Shown here piece after piece: positions 9,816-16,479 of a stretch of 64,000 nucleotides of DNA (positions within the stretch are counted from its first letter, which is position 1; each line of letters opens with the position of its first letter). A model generated the notes under the pieces. The model had not been told where the DNA came from. It did not search any database and saw only the letters and a program-made list of their open reading frames with translations. A program made the translations under genes and the position numbers. The stretch is from Candidatus Kuenenia stuttgartensis (GTDB taxonomy: Bacteria; Planctomycetota; Planctomycetia; Planctomycetales; Planctomycetaceae), in the NCBI GenBank assembly GCA_945861465.1, contig CAMAVB010000002.1:40600-104599 (forward strand), given 5' to 3'.

Positions 9816-10114
9816 TTCGATTCACAAAACAAGACCGAACAAAAGGTTGAACCGGAGAGTTATGCTCCGCGCGGTCGGATTCGAGGTTTTGTGAGCGGCA
9901 AGGCACCTAGGGGATGTTGATTTAATACCAACCCGAAGCGCCAGCGAGGCAGAAACGGCTGAATTCCTCGCTGACGCTTCGGGTTAGTATGAGTCTGAGC
10001 CCCAATAATCACTAAATCAACAGACCGCTGGCGCCATGTCGCTCACGTGGTTGATTAGATCAACAGACGGCCAGCGCCTTGCGGCTCGGTTGTGTGGCCG
10101 GGTACAGTTCAGTC
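9816..10114. other. Intergenic region with nested palindromes
   Basis: It holds a nested inverted repeat. Outer arms GTTGATTTAA and TAAATCAAC (about 9917-10023) enclose the inner palindrome at 9926-9990 (AACCCGAAGCG.../CGCTTCGGGTT). I see no gene in it. Confidence 0.6.
9917..10023. repeat. Nested inverted repeat (GTTGATTTA ends, AACCCGAAGCG core)
   Basis: The outer arms TGTTGATTTA / TAAATCAACA flank a core palindrome in which AACCCGAAGCGCCAGCGAGG is answered by CCTCGCTGACGCTTCGGGTT. The design resembles the other planctomycete palindromes in this window. TTGATTAGATCAACAGACGG nearby repeats part of the right end. Confidence 0.7.
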
Positions 10115-13100
10115 ATGACTCCCGCACGGAAATATTTTCGCAATGCACTGTCGTCCTACTTCACGTGGGCGGATCATGGGCGCGAATTGTGCTGGTGCAA
10201 TGGGGTGACGATTGCTTTTCACGAGGAGATTTCTCCAGTTCTTGATCGACTTGTGGATCAGAATTTCCCGGACTTTTCGACGCTGGCGCTGAGCCTTGCG
10301 ACGCTGCGGAATTCGTGGCCTGAAGTGGCGGCACAGCTGACTGATGCGTTCACATTTCTGGCGTCGTCACCGATTGCACAAATTCGCAAAGCAGCTGACT
10401 CACGCAACGAGCTGTTCGAGGCGTGGCCTGAATCGTTGCGAAAGTTGAGTTTGCTTTCGAGTTATGTCGAAGTCTATTCACCCTCAACGTTGCAACGTTG
10501 CGAGCTGCTTGCTCTTGTTTTTGGGGAATTCTCCAGCAACTTCGCAGCATCGACGCAGGAAGAACTTGCCACGGCATTTCGATCTGGTCTGCCGGAAGAC
10601 TGGCTCGTAGAGAATGAACGACATTCGGGGGCCGAACTGCTGTTACTTCCAAGAAACCTTGGCTACGCATTGCGGATCGGCCGTCACGAGGAAATCACGA
10701 CATTCGCTGTACCTCGAATTCTGCGGATGTTAAGAATTGCGAATTCTCTTGCAGCCTGCATTCCGTGTGATACCGTCGAACAACTGGACCAACTGCTGAA
10801 GACCGGGATCGCGGATGACATCAAGGCTCCGGAGGATGAGCTGCTGGATGAGCTGCAGGATCAGCGAGCTCAGGCACGCGGTCTGCTTGAACAGCTTTCG
10901 GACGATGCGCAACTCAGTGGATTCGCAAGACTGACGAAGCAACTAATTGCGGCGATCACGCTTCCTCGGACGTTGTCGGTGCCTGATGACCTGCAGATGG
11001 GCGGCATTTCGGACATCTCCAATCGCGGCCGCCTTGACAGTCTTTTGCTGAGTGAGCTGGCTCACGATGACCTGACGCTGGCAGTTCGACTGGCTATGAA
11101 CGAAGCGCTTTACATGCGTCGTGAATCGCCGCCTTCGCCGCAGACGAGAACTCGCAGCGTGCTCATTGATCTCAGCTTGCCCATGTGGGGAATCCCGAGG
11201 CTCTACGCGACTGCTGCCGCAATGGCCCTGCATGTGACAAGTGACAAACAGATTCGCATTCACTGTTTTCGTTCGTCGCTGACCGGGATGAAGGCCACAA
11301 AGCTGACAACTCGCGAGGGTTTGCAGGAACACATGTCGGCTCTTGAACCGACGGAACATCCTGGAGCGTCGCTGCAGTCGTTCTTCCAGGCCATTTTGGA
11401 CGAACCGTTGTCCGCCGAACCCGTACTGATCACCACAAGCGACGTTTTGGAGAGCACCGAGTTTCGTCAGACGCTGGACAAGACATGCATCGGCGATCTC
11501 TGGTTGATCGTAGTCGAACGAGACGGGCGGTTGAAAGTTCTGCAGAGAACTCGCCAGGGGACATCCGTCCGTAAGCAATTGCAGTTGCCGCTGGATGAGA
11601 TTCTGAGTCCTCGAACGGCCGCGAAGATTCGTCGAACGGATCTGCCCGATGACCTTCCCGCGATTTTTCATCTTGCGAAGTTCCCGTTGCTGCTGTCGCA
11701 CGAGATTCGAATTAGTCGACTCTGGAAATGGGGCGAATCTGCCATTGCAGTGACAGACGACGGTCGGTTGATGCACTGGACTGAAAAAGGTCTGGGGGCT
11801 CGACAGTTGGCGACGGGGTTGTCCGGTCGAGGTGATGTGAAGATATTTATTTCGCGAAGGCTGGCAGGCACGACCCTGCAACTCTTGTTTTGCCCGATGG
11901 GAGAGCAGGCTGGAACGTTGGTGACCGTTTCCGGGATGAATGATGACGTGACCATTCAACGAGCCGACTACCGAGTTCCCATCGTATCGGATATCGTCGT
12001 GACCGAACCCGCTCTGCTCGTATTCGGAAAGACTCACGAAGGTCTGGAAGTCTGTTCTGCAATTACACATTACGCATGCGATTTTCTCGGGACTCACATT
12101 CTAGGTCACGATTTCAAGGCACGAACGGGCCGATGCATGTTACATGCTGAGAAGGGCTTTTGTGTCCTCAACTGGGTCGGTGGTCACGCTTCGTGGTTAT
12201 TGCAGAAGCTGCCAGAGCCCTATCAACGTTACGTGGGAGTGGAAGAAGCCAGGTCCGCTGTGGCCGAGATTACATCCGGGGTTTACTTTGCCATCAGCAT
12301 GCGCCAACTCATTGATCCGCAGTTCCAGAAGCGATTTGATACGCTGAATGATGTACTTCAAAATAGGTACGATGTCTATCTGCATTCATTTCTTGAAGTG
12401 TCGGTCGATGGCGATCTAGCGGTCCTGGGGCATGTCGCTCGTGCCAGTTTGGCAAGAACTCGGAGCGTGAGGGATTCGTCGCCGACATCGCCGTTAATTG
12501 CGACGACGGGACGCACAACGGTCGATTTGCGTTCCGGAAAAGTCATTTCCAGTACAAACAACGAATCAACGGGGAACGAGATTGCTCGCATCGAATACGA
12601 ACGTGCGTTCCATTTCGTGCGTCAGCACACTCCACATTATCGGTTTTCACGCATCGGCACCGACAGCGGACGATTGGTGTTGCAGGATCCCAGCGGCGGA
12701 TTGTTTCACGTTGCCTGGGATTCAACGAACCGAGCGATACGATTAGGGCCAGCCGGTGAAACAGCAGCATTGCCGCAGTTGATTGAGTTTATTGAAACGC
12801 CCGCCTGTGTTTCCGAAAAGAACTCGACCTCCAATGAGGCTGAGAGACCCGTTGATGACGCTGACAAATACACAGTGAGGCTTACGGGCGTCGGAGAAAA
12901 CCAAATCTCAATCATTAAGACGATACGCACTGCAACAAACGTGAGCTTGCGTGAAGCAATAAATCTCGCAGAAGGCGTACCAATTGTTTTGAGTCAGGGT
13001 GTCTCAAAGAAATCGGCGGATGCTCTTCAGTCGGAGATCATCAATGCTGGTGGCACCTGTGAGATTCTTCCTTCGCAGTGCATTGACCAGAAAGCAACCG

Positions 13101-13438
13101 CTACAGGTGTCACGCTGCAGAAAGCCGAGTGGGAAAACGGCAGCAAAGCCTGGCTGGATTCCCGAGGCTTGCTGCATCTGAAGAGTGCCAATCGAACACA
13201 TCCGGAGATCACTCTGGTGATGCGTGATGGTCCATTGTCCGGCTGGCTGTCATCCGGCGAAGTTTTTGGAGACAATTATTACTGCGGCAAAGATCCGACC
13301 GCTCAGGGGCTGCGGCGAGTGACCGCAGATTTTGCCTGGAATTCGGCCATTCGGCTATTCATTGAATCCGTGCCATGGAACTTCCACTACAGCTCCGATA
13401 CTGCTCAAACGGGAAATACAGTGTTGCCGGGATACTGA
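10115..13438 (+). CDS. bpX-like vWA/beta-propeller protein with an L7/L12 C-terminal domain
   Basis: 1107 residues from ATG 10115 (the ORF-track start is TTG). In order: a helical N-terminal region; a vWA-like domain near residues 345-475, beginning RSVLIDLSLPMWG, where the MIDAS DxSxS is degenerate (DLSLP); a long beta-strand-rich part with propeller-like repeats (about 530-880); and, near 918-985, a ribosomal L7/L12 C-terminal domain (YTVRLTGVGENQISIIKTIR...GVSKKSADAL). That domain keeps the I-I-K-x-x-R helix which binds translation GTPases in L7/L12. A further beta-rich tail follows. The architecture recalls the vWA partner of MoxR-vWA-beta-propeller systems. It overlaps the next gene by 64 bp. 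No MoxR ATPase gene is adjacent. Family naming is from memory; the L7/L12 domain is clear. Confidence 0.75.
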   Translation: MTPARKYFRNALSSYFTWADHGRELCWCNGVTIAFHEEISPVLDRLVDQNFPDFSTLALSLATLRNSWPEVAAQLTDAFTFLASSPIAQIRKAADSRNELFEAWPESLRKLSLLSSYVEVYSPSTLQRCELLALVFGEFSSNFAASTQEELATAFRSGLPEDWLVENERHSGAELLLLPRNLGYALRIGRHEEITTFAVPRILRMLRIANSLAACIPCDTVEQLDQLLKTGIADDIKAPEDELLDELQDQRAQARGLLEQLSDDAQLSGFARLTKQLIAAITLPRTLSVPDDLQMGGISDISNRGRLDSLLLSELAHDDLTLAVRLAMNEALYMRRESPPSPQTRTRSVLIDLSLPMWGIPRLYATAAAMALHVTSDKQIRIHCFRSSLTGMKATKLTTREGLQEHMSALEPTEHPGASLQSFFQAILDEPLSAEPVLITTSDVLESTEFRQTLDKTCIGDLWLIVVERDGRLKVLQRTRQGTSVRKQLQLPLDEILSPRTAAKIRRTDLPDDLPAIFHLAKFPLLLSHEIRISRLWKWGESAIAVTDDGRLMHWTEKGLGARQLATGLSGRGDVKIFISRRLAGTTLQLLFCPMGEQAGTLVTVSGMNDDVTIQRADYRVPIVSDIVVTEPALLVFGKTHEGLEVCSAITHYACDFLGTHILGHDFKARTGRCMLHAEKGFCVLNWVGGHASWLLQKLPEPYQRYVGVEEARSAVAEITSGVYFAISMRQLIDPQFQKRFDTLNDVLQNRYDVYLHSFLEVSVDGDLAVLGHVARASLARTRSVRDSSPTSPLIATTGRTTVDLRSGKVISSTNNESTGNEIARIEYERAFHFVRQHTPHYRFSRIGTDSGRLVLQDPSGGLFHVAWDSTNRAIRLGPAGETAALPQLIEFIETPACVSEKNSTSNEAERPVDDADKYTVRLTGVGENQISIIKTIRTATNVSLREAINLAEGVPIVLSQGVSKKSADALQSEIINAGGTCEILPSQCIDQKATATGVTLQKAEWENGSKAWLDSRGLLHLKSANRTHPEITLVMRDGPLSGWLSSGEVFGDNYYCGKDPTAQGLRRVTADFAWNSAIRLFIESVPWNFHYSSDTAQTGNTVLPGY

Positions 13439-16400
13439 TTCACGGCGACTCGCCCGCTGACTGGTTGACCACCGTGACCCACTGGGGGCTTGGTACGGAG
13501 ACGCTGCGTTTTCTGGTGATCGATGAAAGTAGCAGGCACTTTCCAAGTGCCGTAGCCGAAAAAATCGCTGAAAACGCGGACGGCACACGGAGTGTGCCTG
13601 CTACTCTGAAGCCAAACCAAGGGCCATCAGGCGAATGCCCGCCGACGGAGCGACGGGGCTACGGGAGTTGCTCAGCACTGATTATTGGCACTGGCCTTCC
13701 GCAAAGCCGTGACGAATTCGAACGCCTGGTGAGCCACAAAGCAGCCATCCCTGTCCTGCCTTTGTTTTATCGCTGCGTCGCCGATCGACTGTTTCTTCCC
13801 ATCGACGCGGAACTCACGCCGCACGTTTCTGATGCAGAGCTTCGAGATCTGCTGCCGTCGGATGTATCCTCAGTCCTCGTGTGGCATCCTGCGGCGGGAT
13901 TGATTCAATTTGAATCGGATCAGATTCCGCATGTGGCCGATCTTCTGCGAAGCCCCCCGATTGCAGAGACACATTGGAATGACGCAAAATTCGGCGAGAC
14001 ACTGAACGATCGAATTCGCAGCCTCAATCCGATTGAATCTGACAGACTGGTCGATATTCTTCAACGGGGACAGGACGACATTGGCAAAGACGCGGGCGAC
14101 ATTTCAAAAGCACCACCAAGTCCGGATGAAGTTCAACATCCAAAGCTAAACGACGCCAAGCGTGCCCTGCAGCGAATGATCGCCAAAGGAATCTTCGGGA
14201 TCACAAGCCGTCTGCCAGAAGGACCGGGCGGCAGTCAGGCTCTGGCAAAAATTCACCAATGGGCGGCGTCACTTTTGAGTAATCTGACTGCTGGTTCCGC
14301 TGCTGGTGCTGGCGTTGCCGGCCAGGAAATTCAGCGAGCGATCAGCAACATCTCTTCGCAGCGGGAGAATGAACTCAAACGCCTCCTGCACCTGCTGAAA
14401 AACGACCCCGACCAGGGCTTGCGATACGCGCTGCCTTTGCATGGAGGTTCTCATCGAGGCCAGGCGAACCCGTCAGGACGGCTGGGTGAGCGGACTCCGG
14501 ATTTTCAACTGGGGCAGCTCGGCGGGGCAGGTCCTGCTGATGGCTGGGATCTTCCGTGGGAATATCACGTCAAGCTGATGCAGAGTTATCGCGATCTGGC
14601 TCAGCGTGAAATACGGCTGGCCAATCATCGGCGAGCGGCCTACATTTACGCGACGCTGCTTGGTGATCTCAACGCTGCGGCGACGGCTCTGGAAGCTGGC
14701 AGTCTTCATCGCGATGCCGCGACGATTTATGAGAAACATCTGAACAATCCGCTCAAGGCGGCCGAGTGCCTTCGCAACGGCGGTTTCTGGGAAGACGCGA
14801 TTGTGATCTATCGTGGGCTAAGTCGCTGGATTGAGTTGGGTGAGTTGCACTTGAAACTCGATCAGCCGGAGGAAGCACGCATCATGTTTTCGAACGAGAT
14901 TCGAAGCTGTGAATCGCGTCGAGATTTTCTGAAAGCCGGTGAGTTGGCCGATCAGCGGCTGCAGGATCCCGACCAGGCCGCAGCACTCCTGACAAAGGGC
15001 TGGAAACTGAATGCTTCGGCCGAAAAATGCTTCCGGGCTCTGTTGGATCTGCATGGTCAGCGAGGTCAGCATGCTCAGTCGAGCCTGGCGATTCAGAAGC
15101 TGGCAGGCGGACCGAACCTGTTCGTTCATCAGCGCGCCGACGCGGTCAAAGTCTGCAGTGAAACGGCTGTGGCCTATCCTGACGCCGGTGTTCGTGATCT
15201 CGCACGTCGGCAGACATGGCAGATTGCGAGCGCGGTGTTGCAGGATGCTCAGTCCGAACTGCATCCCTTCGCACTCGCGGTGATTCGCACGCTGTCAAAA
15301 CAAGACGCACTGCTTCAGCAGGATGCTCAGCGATTTGCAGCGCATCGAGTCAAAATGCTGAAGGTGCAAAAAGATCAACAGCGGAAATCTGCGGCGAAGA
15401 GGACGAAAGTGATCCCGCAGCCAAAGACTGTTGTCAAGACGCTGGTTCCTGTGTGCAAAGTTCAGATCACTCCGCCGAACGCTCCGCAGGGAATGAAATG
15501 GCTGTCTGGTGTGATCTCGCACGGGCATTGTTTTGTGCTCGGCGTCGCCCCGGATGAGTCATTGGTGCTTGTTGAAAGCGCGCAGGCGCTTGTTTCGGAA
15601 ACTCACGGGTTTCCTCGCGCCGCATTCATTCTCCGCGCGGAAGAGAATCTACCATTAAAAACCTGCGAGCTTCGACAGAACGGAATTAGGCCGCGGGCCT
15701 GGCTGCAGTCTTTCCCCGCGTCATCCAACTGGAACAAAGTGGCGTTGGAACGAGTTCGCGGGCAGATGAGGTTTCTGGATGTTCTCGCACCGCAGAACAA
15801 TCTCCTGCTGGATTTTATGCAGCTTTCGACGGGCACAATCTGGGCCTTGTTCATCAATGCGCAGCGCCGCCTGGTTTTGGAAGCGATTGGACTGAACGGG
15901 CTTGTTCGCCAAACGCTGGTGCTCGATCTGGAGTTCAGCACGGACGATAATTTTCTTTATGATCGTTACAAAGTACAGTCGTACCGAATTCATCACGATG
16001 GCGCTCGCGTAATCGTCCTTGCAGGCCGACATGTCTGGCGGGTTGATTCTGTTGAAGCTGCAGTCGTTGATACGTCGAGCGAAATCCTCGTGAAACCGAC
16101 CCCGGTGATTGAGTTTCCCGAGGCTCCCTTGAAGATGGTTGCCTCGCCGGTGAACACCACGCTGCGTCTGGCATTTTCATTTAAAGACAGTGCTCAGGCT
16201 GTTTGGCCGATGTCGAATGAGAGCTGTTCATTCGCATCGGGATTTGATCAACCATTGATTGCCTGTACTGGCAACGGTCTCTTCGTTGCGGCATGTAGTA
16301 CGACAGGACGAATCGCCAGTTATCGGCTGAATGCGGGCATTGCAGTACTCCTGGCCGAATTTGAGCAAGCGATCGATTCCGACCCGATCGTTGATCTCAT

Positions 16401-16479
16401 GCCAGGACCGGGTGGCAACGATTTCTGTGTACTGCACGCATCCGGTCGCCTGCTGAGGCTTCAGATTCCGGTCCGGTAG
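13375..16479 (+). CDS. bpX6-like protein with TPR-like helices and C-terminal beta-propeller
   Basis: 1034 residues. The N-terminal part (residues 1-220, SVAGILIHGDSPADWL... VLVWHPAAGLIQFESDQIPHVADLL) resembles the bpX6-type domain of MoxR-vWA-bpX systems. A glycine-rich linker, then an alpha-helical, TPR-like region (about 390-640: RRAAYIYATLLGDLNAAATALEAG, AAECLRNGGFWEDAIVIYRGL) follow. A Lys/Gln-rich stretch and a C-terminal beta-propeller (about 690-1034) close the protein. The start lies inside the previous gene in another frame, which suggests translational coupling. Residues about 52-77 are encoded by an in-frame palindromic repeat (13528-13605), so this piece is probably an insertion that kept the frame. 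I do not know the function. Confidence 0.65.
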   Translation: MELPLQLRYCSNGKYSVAGILIHGDSPADWLTTVTHWGLGTETLRFLVIDESSRHFPSAVAEKIAENADGTRSVPATLKPNQGPSGECPPTERRGYGSCSALIIGTGLPQSRDEFERLVSHKAAIPVLPLFYRCVADRLFLPIDAELTPHVSDAELRDLLPSDVSSVLVWHPAAGLIQFESDQIPHVADLLRSPPIAETHWNDAKFGETLNDRIRSLNPIESDRLVDILQRGQDDIGKDAGDISKAPPSPDEVQHPKLNDAKRALQRMIAKGIFGITSRLPEGPGGSQALAKIHQWAASLLSNLTAGSAAGAGVAGQEIQRAISNISSQRENELKRLLHLLKNDPDQGLRYALPLHGGSHRGQANPSGRLGERTPDFQLGQLGGAGPADGWDLPWEYHVKLMQSYRDLAQREIRLANHRRAAYIYATLLGDLNAAATALEAGSLHRDAATIYEKHLNNPLKAAECLRNGGFWEDAIVIYRGLSRWIELGELHLKLDQPEEARIMFSNEIRSCESRRDFLKAGELADQRLQDPDQAAALLTKGWKLNASAEKCFRALLDLHGQRGQHAQSSLAIQKLAGGPNLFVHQRADAVKVCSETAVAYPDAGVRDLARRQTWQIASAVLQDAQSELHPFALAVIRTLSKQDALLQQDAQRFAAHRVKMLKVQKDQQRKSAAKRTKVIPQPKTVVKTLVPVCKVQITPPNAPQGMKWLSGVISHGHCFVLGVAPDESLVLVESAQALVSETHGFPRAAFILRAEENLPLKTCELRQNGIRPRAWLQSFPASSNWNKVALERVRGQMRFLDVLAPQNNLLLDFMQLSTGTIWALFINAQRRLVLEAIGLNGLVRQTLVLDLEFSTDDNFLYDRYKVQSYRIHHDGARVIVLAGRHVWRVDSVEAAVVDTSSEILVKPTPVIEFPEAPLKMVASPVNTTLRLAFSFKDSAQAVWPMSNESCSFASGFDQPLIACTGNGLFVAACSTTGRIASYRLNAGIAVLLAEFEQAIDSDPIVDLMPGPGGNDFCVLHASGRLLRLQIPVR
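13528..13605. repeat. In-frame palindromic repeat inside a coding sequence
   Basis: A 12-bp perfect terminal inverted repeat (AGTAGCAGGCAC / GTGCCTGCTACT) flanks two small hairpins, GGCACTTTCCAAGTGCC and GGCACACGGAGTGTGCC. Its length is 78 bp, exactly 26 codons, with no stop in the host frame. A half copy (AGTACCAGGCACATTCCATG...) lies in the intergenic region at 57667-57696. Confidence 0.85.

Follow-up and report, generated by a model that had tools for sequence, protein, structure and literature searches.

An L7/L12 C-terminal domain in the vWA subunit of a planctomycete MoxR-vWA-beta-propeller ternary system, derived from the host's own rplL

The window, that is, the whole 64,000-nucleotide stretch of planctomycete DNA analyzed here, encodes the vWA subunit of a MoxR-vWA-beta-propeller ternary system, and residues 920-984 of this protein are a genuine L7/L12 C-terminal domain (CTD) rather than a chance resemblance. 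Its donor was clearly the rplL of the host itself. That such a domain was captured separately at least twice is well supported: once in a planctomycete and once or more in Bacteroidota, where two insertion sites were found. We proposed that the captured domain probably serves as a docking site or bait. Fusions of this kind are already on record: the sections of Kaur et al. (2020, eLife 9:e52696, PMC7159879) on beta-propeller MoxR-vWA ternary systems describe L12/ClpS insertions, with L12 inserted C-terminal to the vWA domain "in several bacteroidetes ... at different points", and the planctomycete case is thus a further member. In these same sections the domain is called multimerizing, and its origin and factor-binding face are not discussed. 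What is new here is the evidence on the origin of the insert from the host's own rplL and on its repeated capture.

The reading frame of the host protein extends from 10079 to 13438; position 10079 is an in-frame TTG, and the ATG at 10115 is the likely start. The protein aligned over its full length with the vWA proteins of its closest homologues (L060 from Fuerstiella sp., L061, and L062) at 39-41% identity, and its order bpX0-vWA-propeller-[L12]-bpX1 (table 1) identifies it as the vWA subunit. The Pfam matches to bpX0 and bpX1 agree with the initial annotation, which had placed the L12 domain in a vWA/propeller protein of conflict type. The ivWA profile matched weakly, just upstream of the vWA region (E=0.045, below the cut-off); a divergent vWA domain is given as a trait of the beta-propeller MoxR-vWA family in the sections cited above (PMC7159879), and D352, W358, and G359 were conserved across the vWA protein family. 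The best Foldseek matches of the propeller region were beta-propellers, with low whole-query TM-scores. The protein ends in a C-terminal tail of ~20 residues that is not present in its relatives.

Table 1. Positions in the window of the vWA subunit, its parts, and the adjacent bpX3 protein (residues are those of the vWA subunit).
Feature	Position	Strand	Description
vWA subunit of MoxR-vWA-beta-propeller ternary system, with inserted L12 CTD	10115..13438	+	1107 aa; Pfam bpX0, Ribosomal_L12, and bpX1 above cut-offs
bpX0 helical domain	10202..10615	+	residues 30-167; PF19915 E=1.2e-7, above cut-off; helical in AlphaFold2 model
Divergent vWA domain	11147..11524	+	about residues 345-470; strands and helices alternate in AlphaFold2 model
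Beta-propeller region	11717..12721	+	about residues 535-869, C-terminal to vWA; repeated strands, pLDDT 80-94 (AlphaFold2)
N-side linker of L12 domain	12770..12871	+	residues 886-919; AlphaFold2 pLDDT below 50; missing in homologues
L7/L12 C-terminal domain	12872..13066	+	residues 920-984; PF00542, 1ctf match, model and Foldseek
Helix with factor-binding positions	12902..12928	+	Q930 (K65), I931 (V66), I934 (I69), K935 (K70), R938 (R73); E. coli numbering in brackets
C-side linker of L12 domain	13067..13117	+	residues 985-1001; low pLDDT; missing in homologues
bpX1 beta domain	13118..13366	+	residues 1002-1084; PF19917 E=4.7e-18, above cut-off
bpX3 protein, third component	13375..16479	+	1034 aa, next ORF after vWA; PF19919 E=6e-31; 35% identity to bpX3 beside vWA in L061

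Profile, sequence, and structure comparisons converged on the identity of the insert. The initial annotation had located an L7/L12 CTD at 12860-13075; its coordinates and frame were correct, the profile match falls inside them, and profile alignment and structure prediction both bore out the assignment. Ribosomal_L12 (PF00542) matched the whole protein with E=4e-14 (53.1 bits against a gathering score of 25.9) and the insert segment by itself with E=4.6e-16. In a phmmer search against the PDB, all of the 18 matches of the insert were L12 proteins, including the E. coli L12 CTD (1ctf, E=6.3e-11, 70 residues without gaps). The NCBIfam L12 model TIGR00855 scored under its cut-off (E=1.8e-11), as expected for a fragment without the L12 N-terminal domain. 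The N-terminal family responsible for dimerization and L10 binding was absent from the Pfam scan of the window protein. When the 79-residue segment was modeled alone with AlphaFold2 and no alignment, a strand-helix-helix-helix-strand fold was obtained with moderate confidence (mean pLDDT 70), in agreement with 1ctf/1rqs; the top 15 Foldseek matches of this model in the PDB were all L7/L12 (best E=2e-5, TM 0.66-0.70), and next came ClpS, a protein that shares this fold. The full-length AlphaFold2 model with the family alignment gave no information on the insert (pLDDT below 50 at residues 872-995), because the aligned homologues all lack it. Of the conserved columns of the fold, 27/34 were similar in the window insert. 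The genome has a separate rplL of its own (contig C123). A chimeric assembly or mis-assembly was rejected, as the best rplL is only 50% identical and the insert DNA has no significant similarity to rplL DNA.

The insert was rare. It was absent, together with its linkers, from L060-L062, which indicates that the domain is no regular component of the protein family. No L12 insert was found in about 100 further vWA/bpX1 loci, among them 27 other planctomycete bpX1 loci and 80 loci of a GTDB-wide scan, or in a Pfam scan of all 40 other members of the A3 alignment; the sets overlap. Among 396 Bacteroidota genomes, 10 bpX1 proteins were found, three of which (in G732, G644, and G728) have an L12 domain between the propeller and bpX1; family-level searches added G1098, with the domain at the same junction, and G1048, with the domain inside bpX1. 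The five Bacteroidota carriers thus comprise four at the propeller/bpX1 junction and one inside bpX1, and in some of them the L12 domain is joined to bpX1 without a long linker. L12 scored above the gathering score in all four of these carriers that were searched with Pfam, and the L12 N-terminal domain was found in none of the five insert-bearing proteins scanned (the window protein and four from Bacteroidota). A linked bpX4-MoxR-bpX2-vWA-bpX3 order was present in G728, G644, and G732. A plasmid of Hymenobacter yonginensis (NZ_CP115397.1, 9486-17322) carries a complete beta-propeller ternary system without an L12 insert. In a search with PF00542 over 392 planctomycete genomes, the matches listed were mostly rplL. 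L12-like segments were also observed in two other kinds of protein. In the genome of the window, a 141-aa protein (contig C186; L142:1252-1677, minus strand) has two L12-CTD-like hairpins (IKRYREETGVGLAEAK and VKLFRDRFRVDLRGAK) and a C-terminal hydrophobic stretch, with Pfam matches to Ribosomal_L12 and DUF6793; small proteins resembling it were seen in G1074 and G1079. In a Fuerstiella sp. MAG (L194, contig C117 of G1073), a transporter-like protein of 558 aa, whose sequence looks MFS-like, carries an L12-CTD-like domain behind the first hydrophobic segment, in which the IK..R positions are absent.

We addressed the origin of the insert by comparing it with rplL of both phyla and with the other inserts. 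On average, the window insert shared 44% identity with rplL from planctomycetes and 28% with rplL from Bacteroidota; with the inserts of other vWA proteins it shared 25-30%. Its best rplL match, at 50% identity, came from the same genus. The pattern was reversed in the G1048 insert, with 42% identity to rplL from Bacteroidota and 27% to rplL from planctomycetes. At 11 columns by which the two phyla can be told apart, the window insert has eight planctomycete-type and no Bacteroidota-type residues, and the G1048 insert has one and eight, respectively; the other three inserts compared were mixed. In trees of this short domain with long branches, the window insert was nested in rplL of its own genus (support 100/97), and the terminal branches leading to the inserts measured 1.2-2.1 substitutions per site, whereas the median for rplL was near 0.05. 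The AU test rejected one common origin for the complete set of inserts (p=0.0057 for five inserts, p=0.025 for six) but did not reject a clade joining the window insert only to those flavobacterial inserts that share its position (p=0.15 and 0.27). In the tree of the host protein with the insert removed, the window protein grouped with the insert-free planctomycete proteins of L060-L062 (support 100), far from the Bacteroidota carriers, and the four Bacteroidota carriers included formed a separate clade (support 100). This grouping of the host protein led us to reject acquisition of the gene, insert included, from Bacteroidota. In the window and in G1048, the insert clearly derives from rplL of the host; for the remaining inserts this is less clear.

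The gene neighborhood of the vWA subunit showed a divided operon. The usual order, seen in L060 and L061, is bpX4, bpMoxR, bpX2, vWA, and bpX3; the window holds only vWA and bpX3, preceded upstream by genes for a DoxX-like protein and for ribosomal protein L24. The vWA and bpX3 frames overlap by 64 bases in the window (13375-13438) and by 4 bases in L060 and L061. No bpMoxR gene is linked to the vWA gene in the window; it was found elsewhere in the same genome, where the bpX4-bpMoxR-bpX2 half lies on other contigs (C69:1-1100 and C221:1-1800; loci L154 and L153), with the break between C69 and C221 falling inside moxR. This bpMoxR is 74-80% identical to that of L061, and bpX1 occurs only once in the genome. 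Thus, if the assembly bin represents one organism (contamination 3.7%), the ternary system is complete but split over two genome places. A REP-like inverted repeat (AACCCGAAGCGCCAGCGAGG ... CCTCGCTGACGCTTCGGGTT) lies at 9930-9985 of the window, immediately upstream of the vWA gene. Such a repeat was considered as a candidate cause of the split: near the other breakpoint there are short matches to the window region upstream of vWA, but the 20-base palindrome was not there. PADLOC returned nothing useful for either the vWA or the bpX3 protein of the window. The L24 gene (8961-9320) stands alone near the trigger factor gene and two clpP genes, outside any ribosomal protein cluster.

The factor-binding face of the insert was partly retained. 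The initial annotation had described the factor-binding helix as kept; in E. coli numbering, this held for V66 (as I, the planctomycete type), I69, K70, and R73. Three lysines present in each of the 40 rplL compared are, however, replaced in the window insert: K65 by Q, K84 by I, and K95 by S (position 81 is R). K65 was lost in 5/6 inserts, K95 in most, and K84 in the window. Homologues, to which the same annotation had looked for conservation of the domain and of these positions, spoke partly against it, as the nearest ones have no L12 domain at all. Most of the other five inserts have an identical or similar residue at the named positions, with flavobacterial exceptions in G1098 (N at 73) and G728 (Q at 70). 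At 66, 69, 70, and 73, the window insert is identical to the host-phylum rplL consensus. When three lineages were compared (the window, G1048, and one flavobacterial representative), these positions, fixed in advance by the initial annotation, matched the host-phylum consensus in 12/12, 11/12, 10/12, or 9/12 cells, the outcome varying with the representative, against 42-45 of 90 cells for the other columns conserved at 90% or more. In this small sample, the Fisher p value for the difference was 0.00025, 0.003, 0.028, or 0.08, depending on the flavobacterial representative. This better retention is no more than suggestive, as positions 66 and 69 may be structural. When K65 of E. coli L12 is changed to Q, EF-Tu is bound about twofold more weakly, with a KD of 1.52 uM instead of 0.74 uM (PMC10602876). 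From these sequence comparisons, factor binding by the window insert is plausible.

We proposed, with a probability of about one half, that the insert is a stalk mimic, a docking module for ligands that normally visit the ribosomal stalk. The vWA subunit has taken in the bL12 CTD of an rplL from its own genus and holds it on linkers, with the propeller on one side and bpX1 on the other. On this model, EF-Tu, EF-G, IF2, RF3, or a stalk-binding partner would dock on it; docking would bring these ligands to the vWA-MoxR machine, or the machine to translation; and the ternary system may thereby sense or act on translation. We infer that the insert retained binding of stalk ligands and that binding was the reason for its capture. 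In bL12, the CTD recruits IF2, EF-Tu, EF-G, and RF3, and the N-terminal domain dimerizes (PMC12548414); the insert consists of the CTD only, and docking is therefore a better default than multimerization. Counted against docking are the loss of K65, K95, and, in the window, K84, the possibility that V66 and I69 could be kept for packing only, and the rarity of a domain that the vWA family does without. Compared with the rplL product, the insert has the same fold, a similar sequence (at best 50% identity to an rplL of its genus), and the same I69, K70, and R73, but it has no N-terminal dimerization/L10-binding domain, has lost the three lysines, and is tethered at both ends in a large protein.

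The reading ranked second, which we considered rather unlikely, is that the captured domain would be an integrated decoy, a bait for a phage or toxin protein that attacks the ribosomal stalk, so that contact or damage would trigger the MoxR-vWA machine. Consistent with this, a host housekeeping domain was captured repeatedly into a conflict protein, at two positions, in few members, and with fast divergence, and the linkers on both sides would expose the domain in the window protein; however, an attacked surface should be kept, yet part of the charged surface was lost. In plants, NLR receptors with integrated decoys have captured housekeeping domains into immune receptors repeatedly and in few members. 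The pattern of capture is alike, but the proteins and the kingdom are different, and a decoy role here would be an analogy whose logic is taken from plants, which counts against it. Stalk-dependent action is known in bacterial immunity from Cami1 (CARF-RelE), described as an immune effector acting via the ribosomal stalk where PMC11229360 cites Mogila et al. (2023); PDB entry 8phj is Cami1 on the ribosome. Like the window protein, Cami1 ties bacterial immunity to the bL12 CTD, but it visits the stalk on the ribosome, whereas in the window the stalk domain has been copied into the immune-type protein itself; the two are not homologous. With an immune effector acting at the stalk on record, both the docking and the decoy readings become less outlandish. 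More broadly, and tentatively, conflict systems of different phyla may have repeatedly captured the host stalk factor-binding domain as an integrated sensor or decoy through which the MoxR-vWA machine would directly read whether translation factors or the stalk have been attacked or altered, with the factor-binding face under selection and the rest of the domain diverging.

Third in our ranking, and doubtful, is a role of the L12 domain only in complex assembly, the link to translation being gone. The loss of K65, K84, and K95 and the direct junction with bpX1 in some Bacteroidota inserts would fit such a scaffold, as would the label "multimerizing" in the relevant sections of Kaur et al. (2020, PMC7159879); but bL12 dimerizes through its N-terminal domain and binds factors through the CTD (PMC12548414), and the missing dimerization domain, found in none of the five insert-bearing proteins scanned, makes the label doubtful. 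Moreover, the four factor-binding positions were kept better than the other conserved columns. Finally, although the insert occurs only once among the planctomycetes examined and its operon is split, a chance insertion of little function that is being lost is improbable given at least two separate captures, four Bacteroidota proteins with the domain at a matching position and one elsewhere, an open frame, an intact predicted fold, and similarity at 27/34 conserved fold columns.

The window system resembles those covered in the sections of Kaur et al. cited above in the order bpX0, vWA, propeller, and bpX1, in its partners bpX2, bpX3, bpX4, and bpMoxR, and in an L12 domain C-terminal to vWA, and differs in its planctomycete host, in an insert that stems from planctomycete rplL instead of from the Bacteroidota inserts, and in an operon split over two genome places. 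The evidence on origin argues against reading the insertion as a multimerization module. We know of no effector or trigger for beta-propeller ternary systems. The host-rplL origin and the repeated capture give concrete ground for a direct binding test of the function proposed here from sequence. Taken together, the fact that Planctomycetota and Bacteroidota each took up an rplL-derived domain on their own suggests that the ribosomal stalk, or its ligands, may be among the things that this class of systems senses or acts on.
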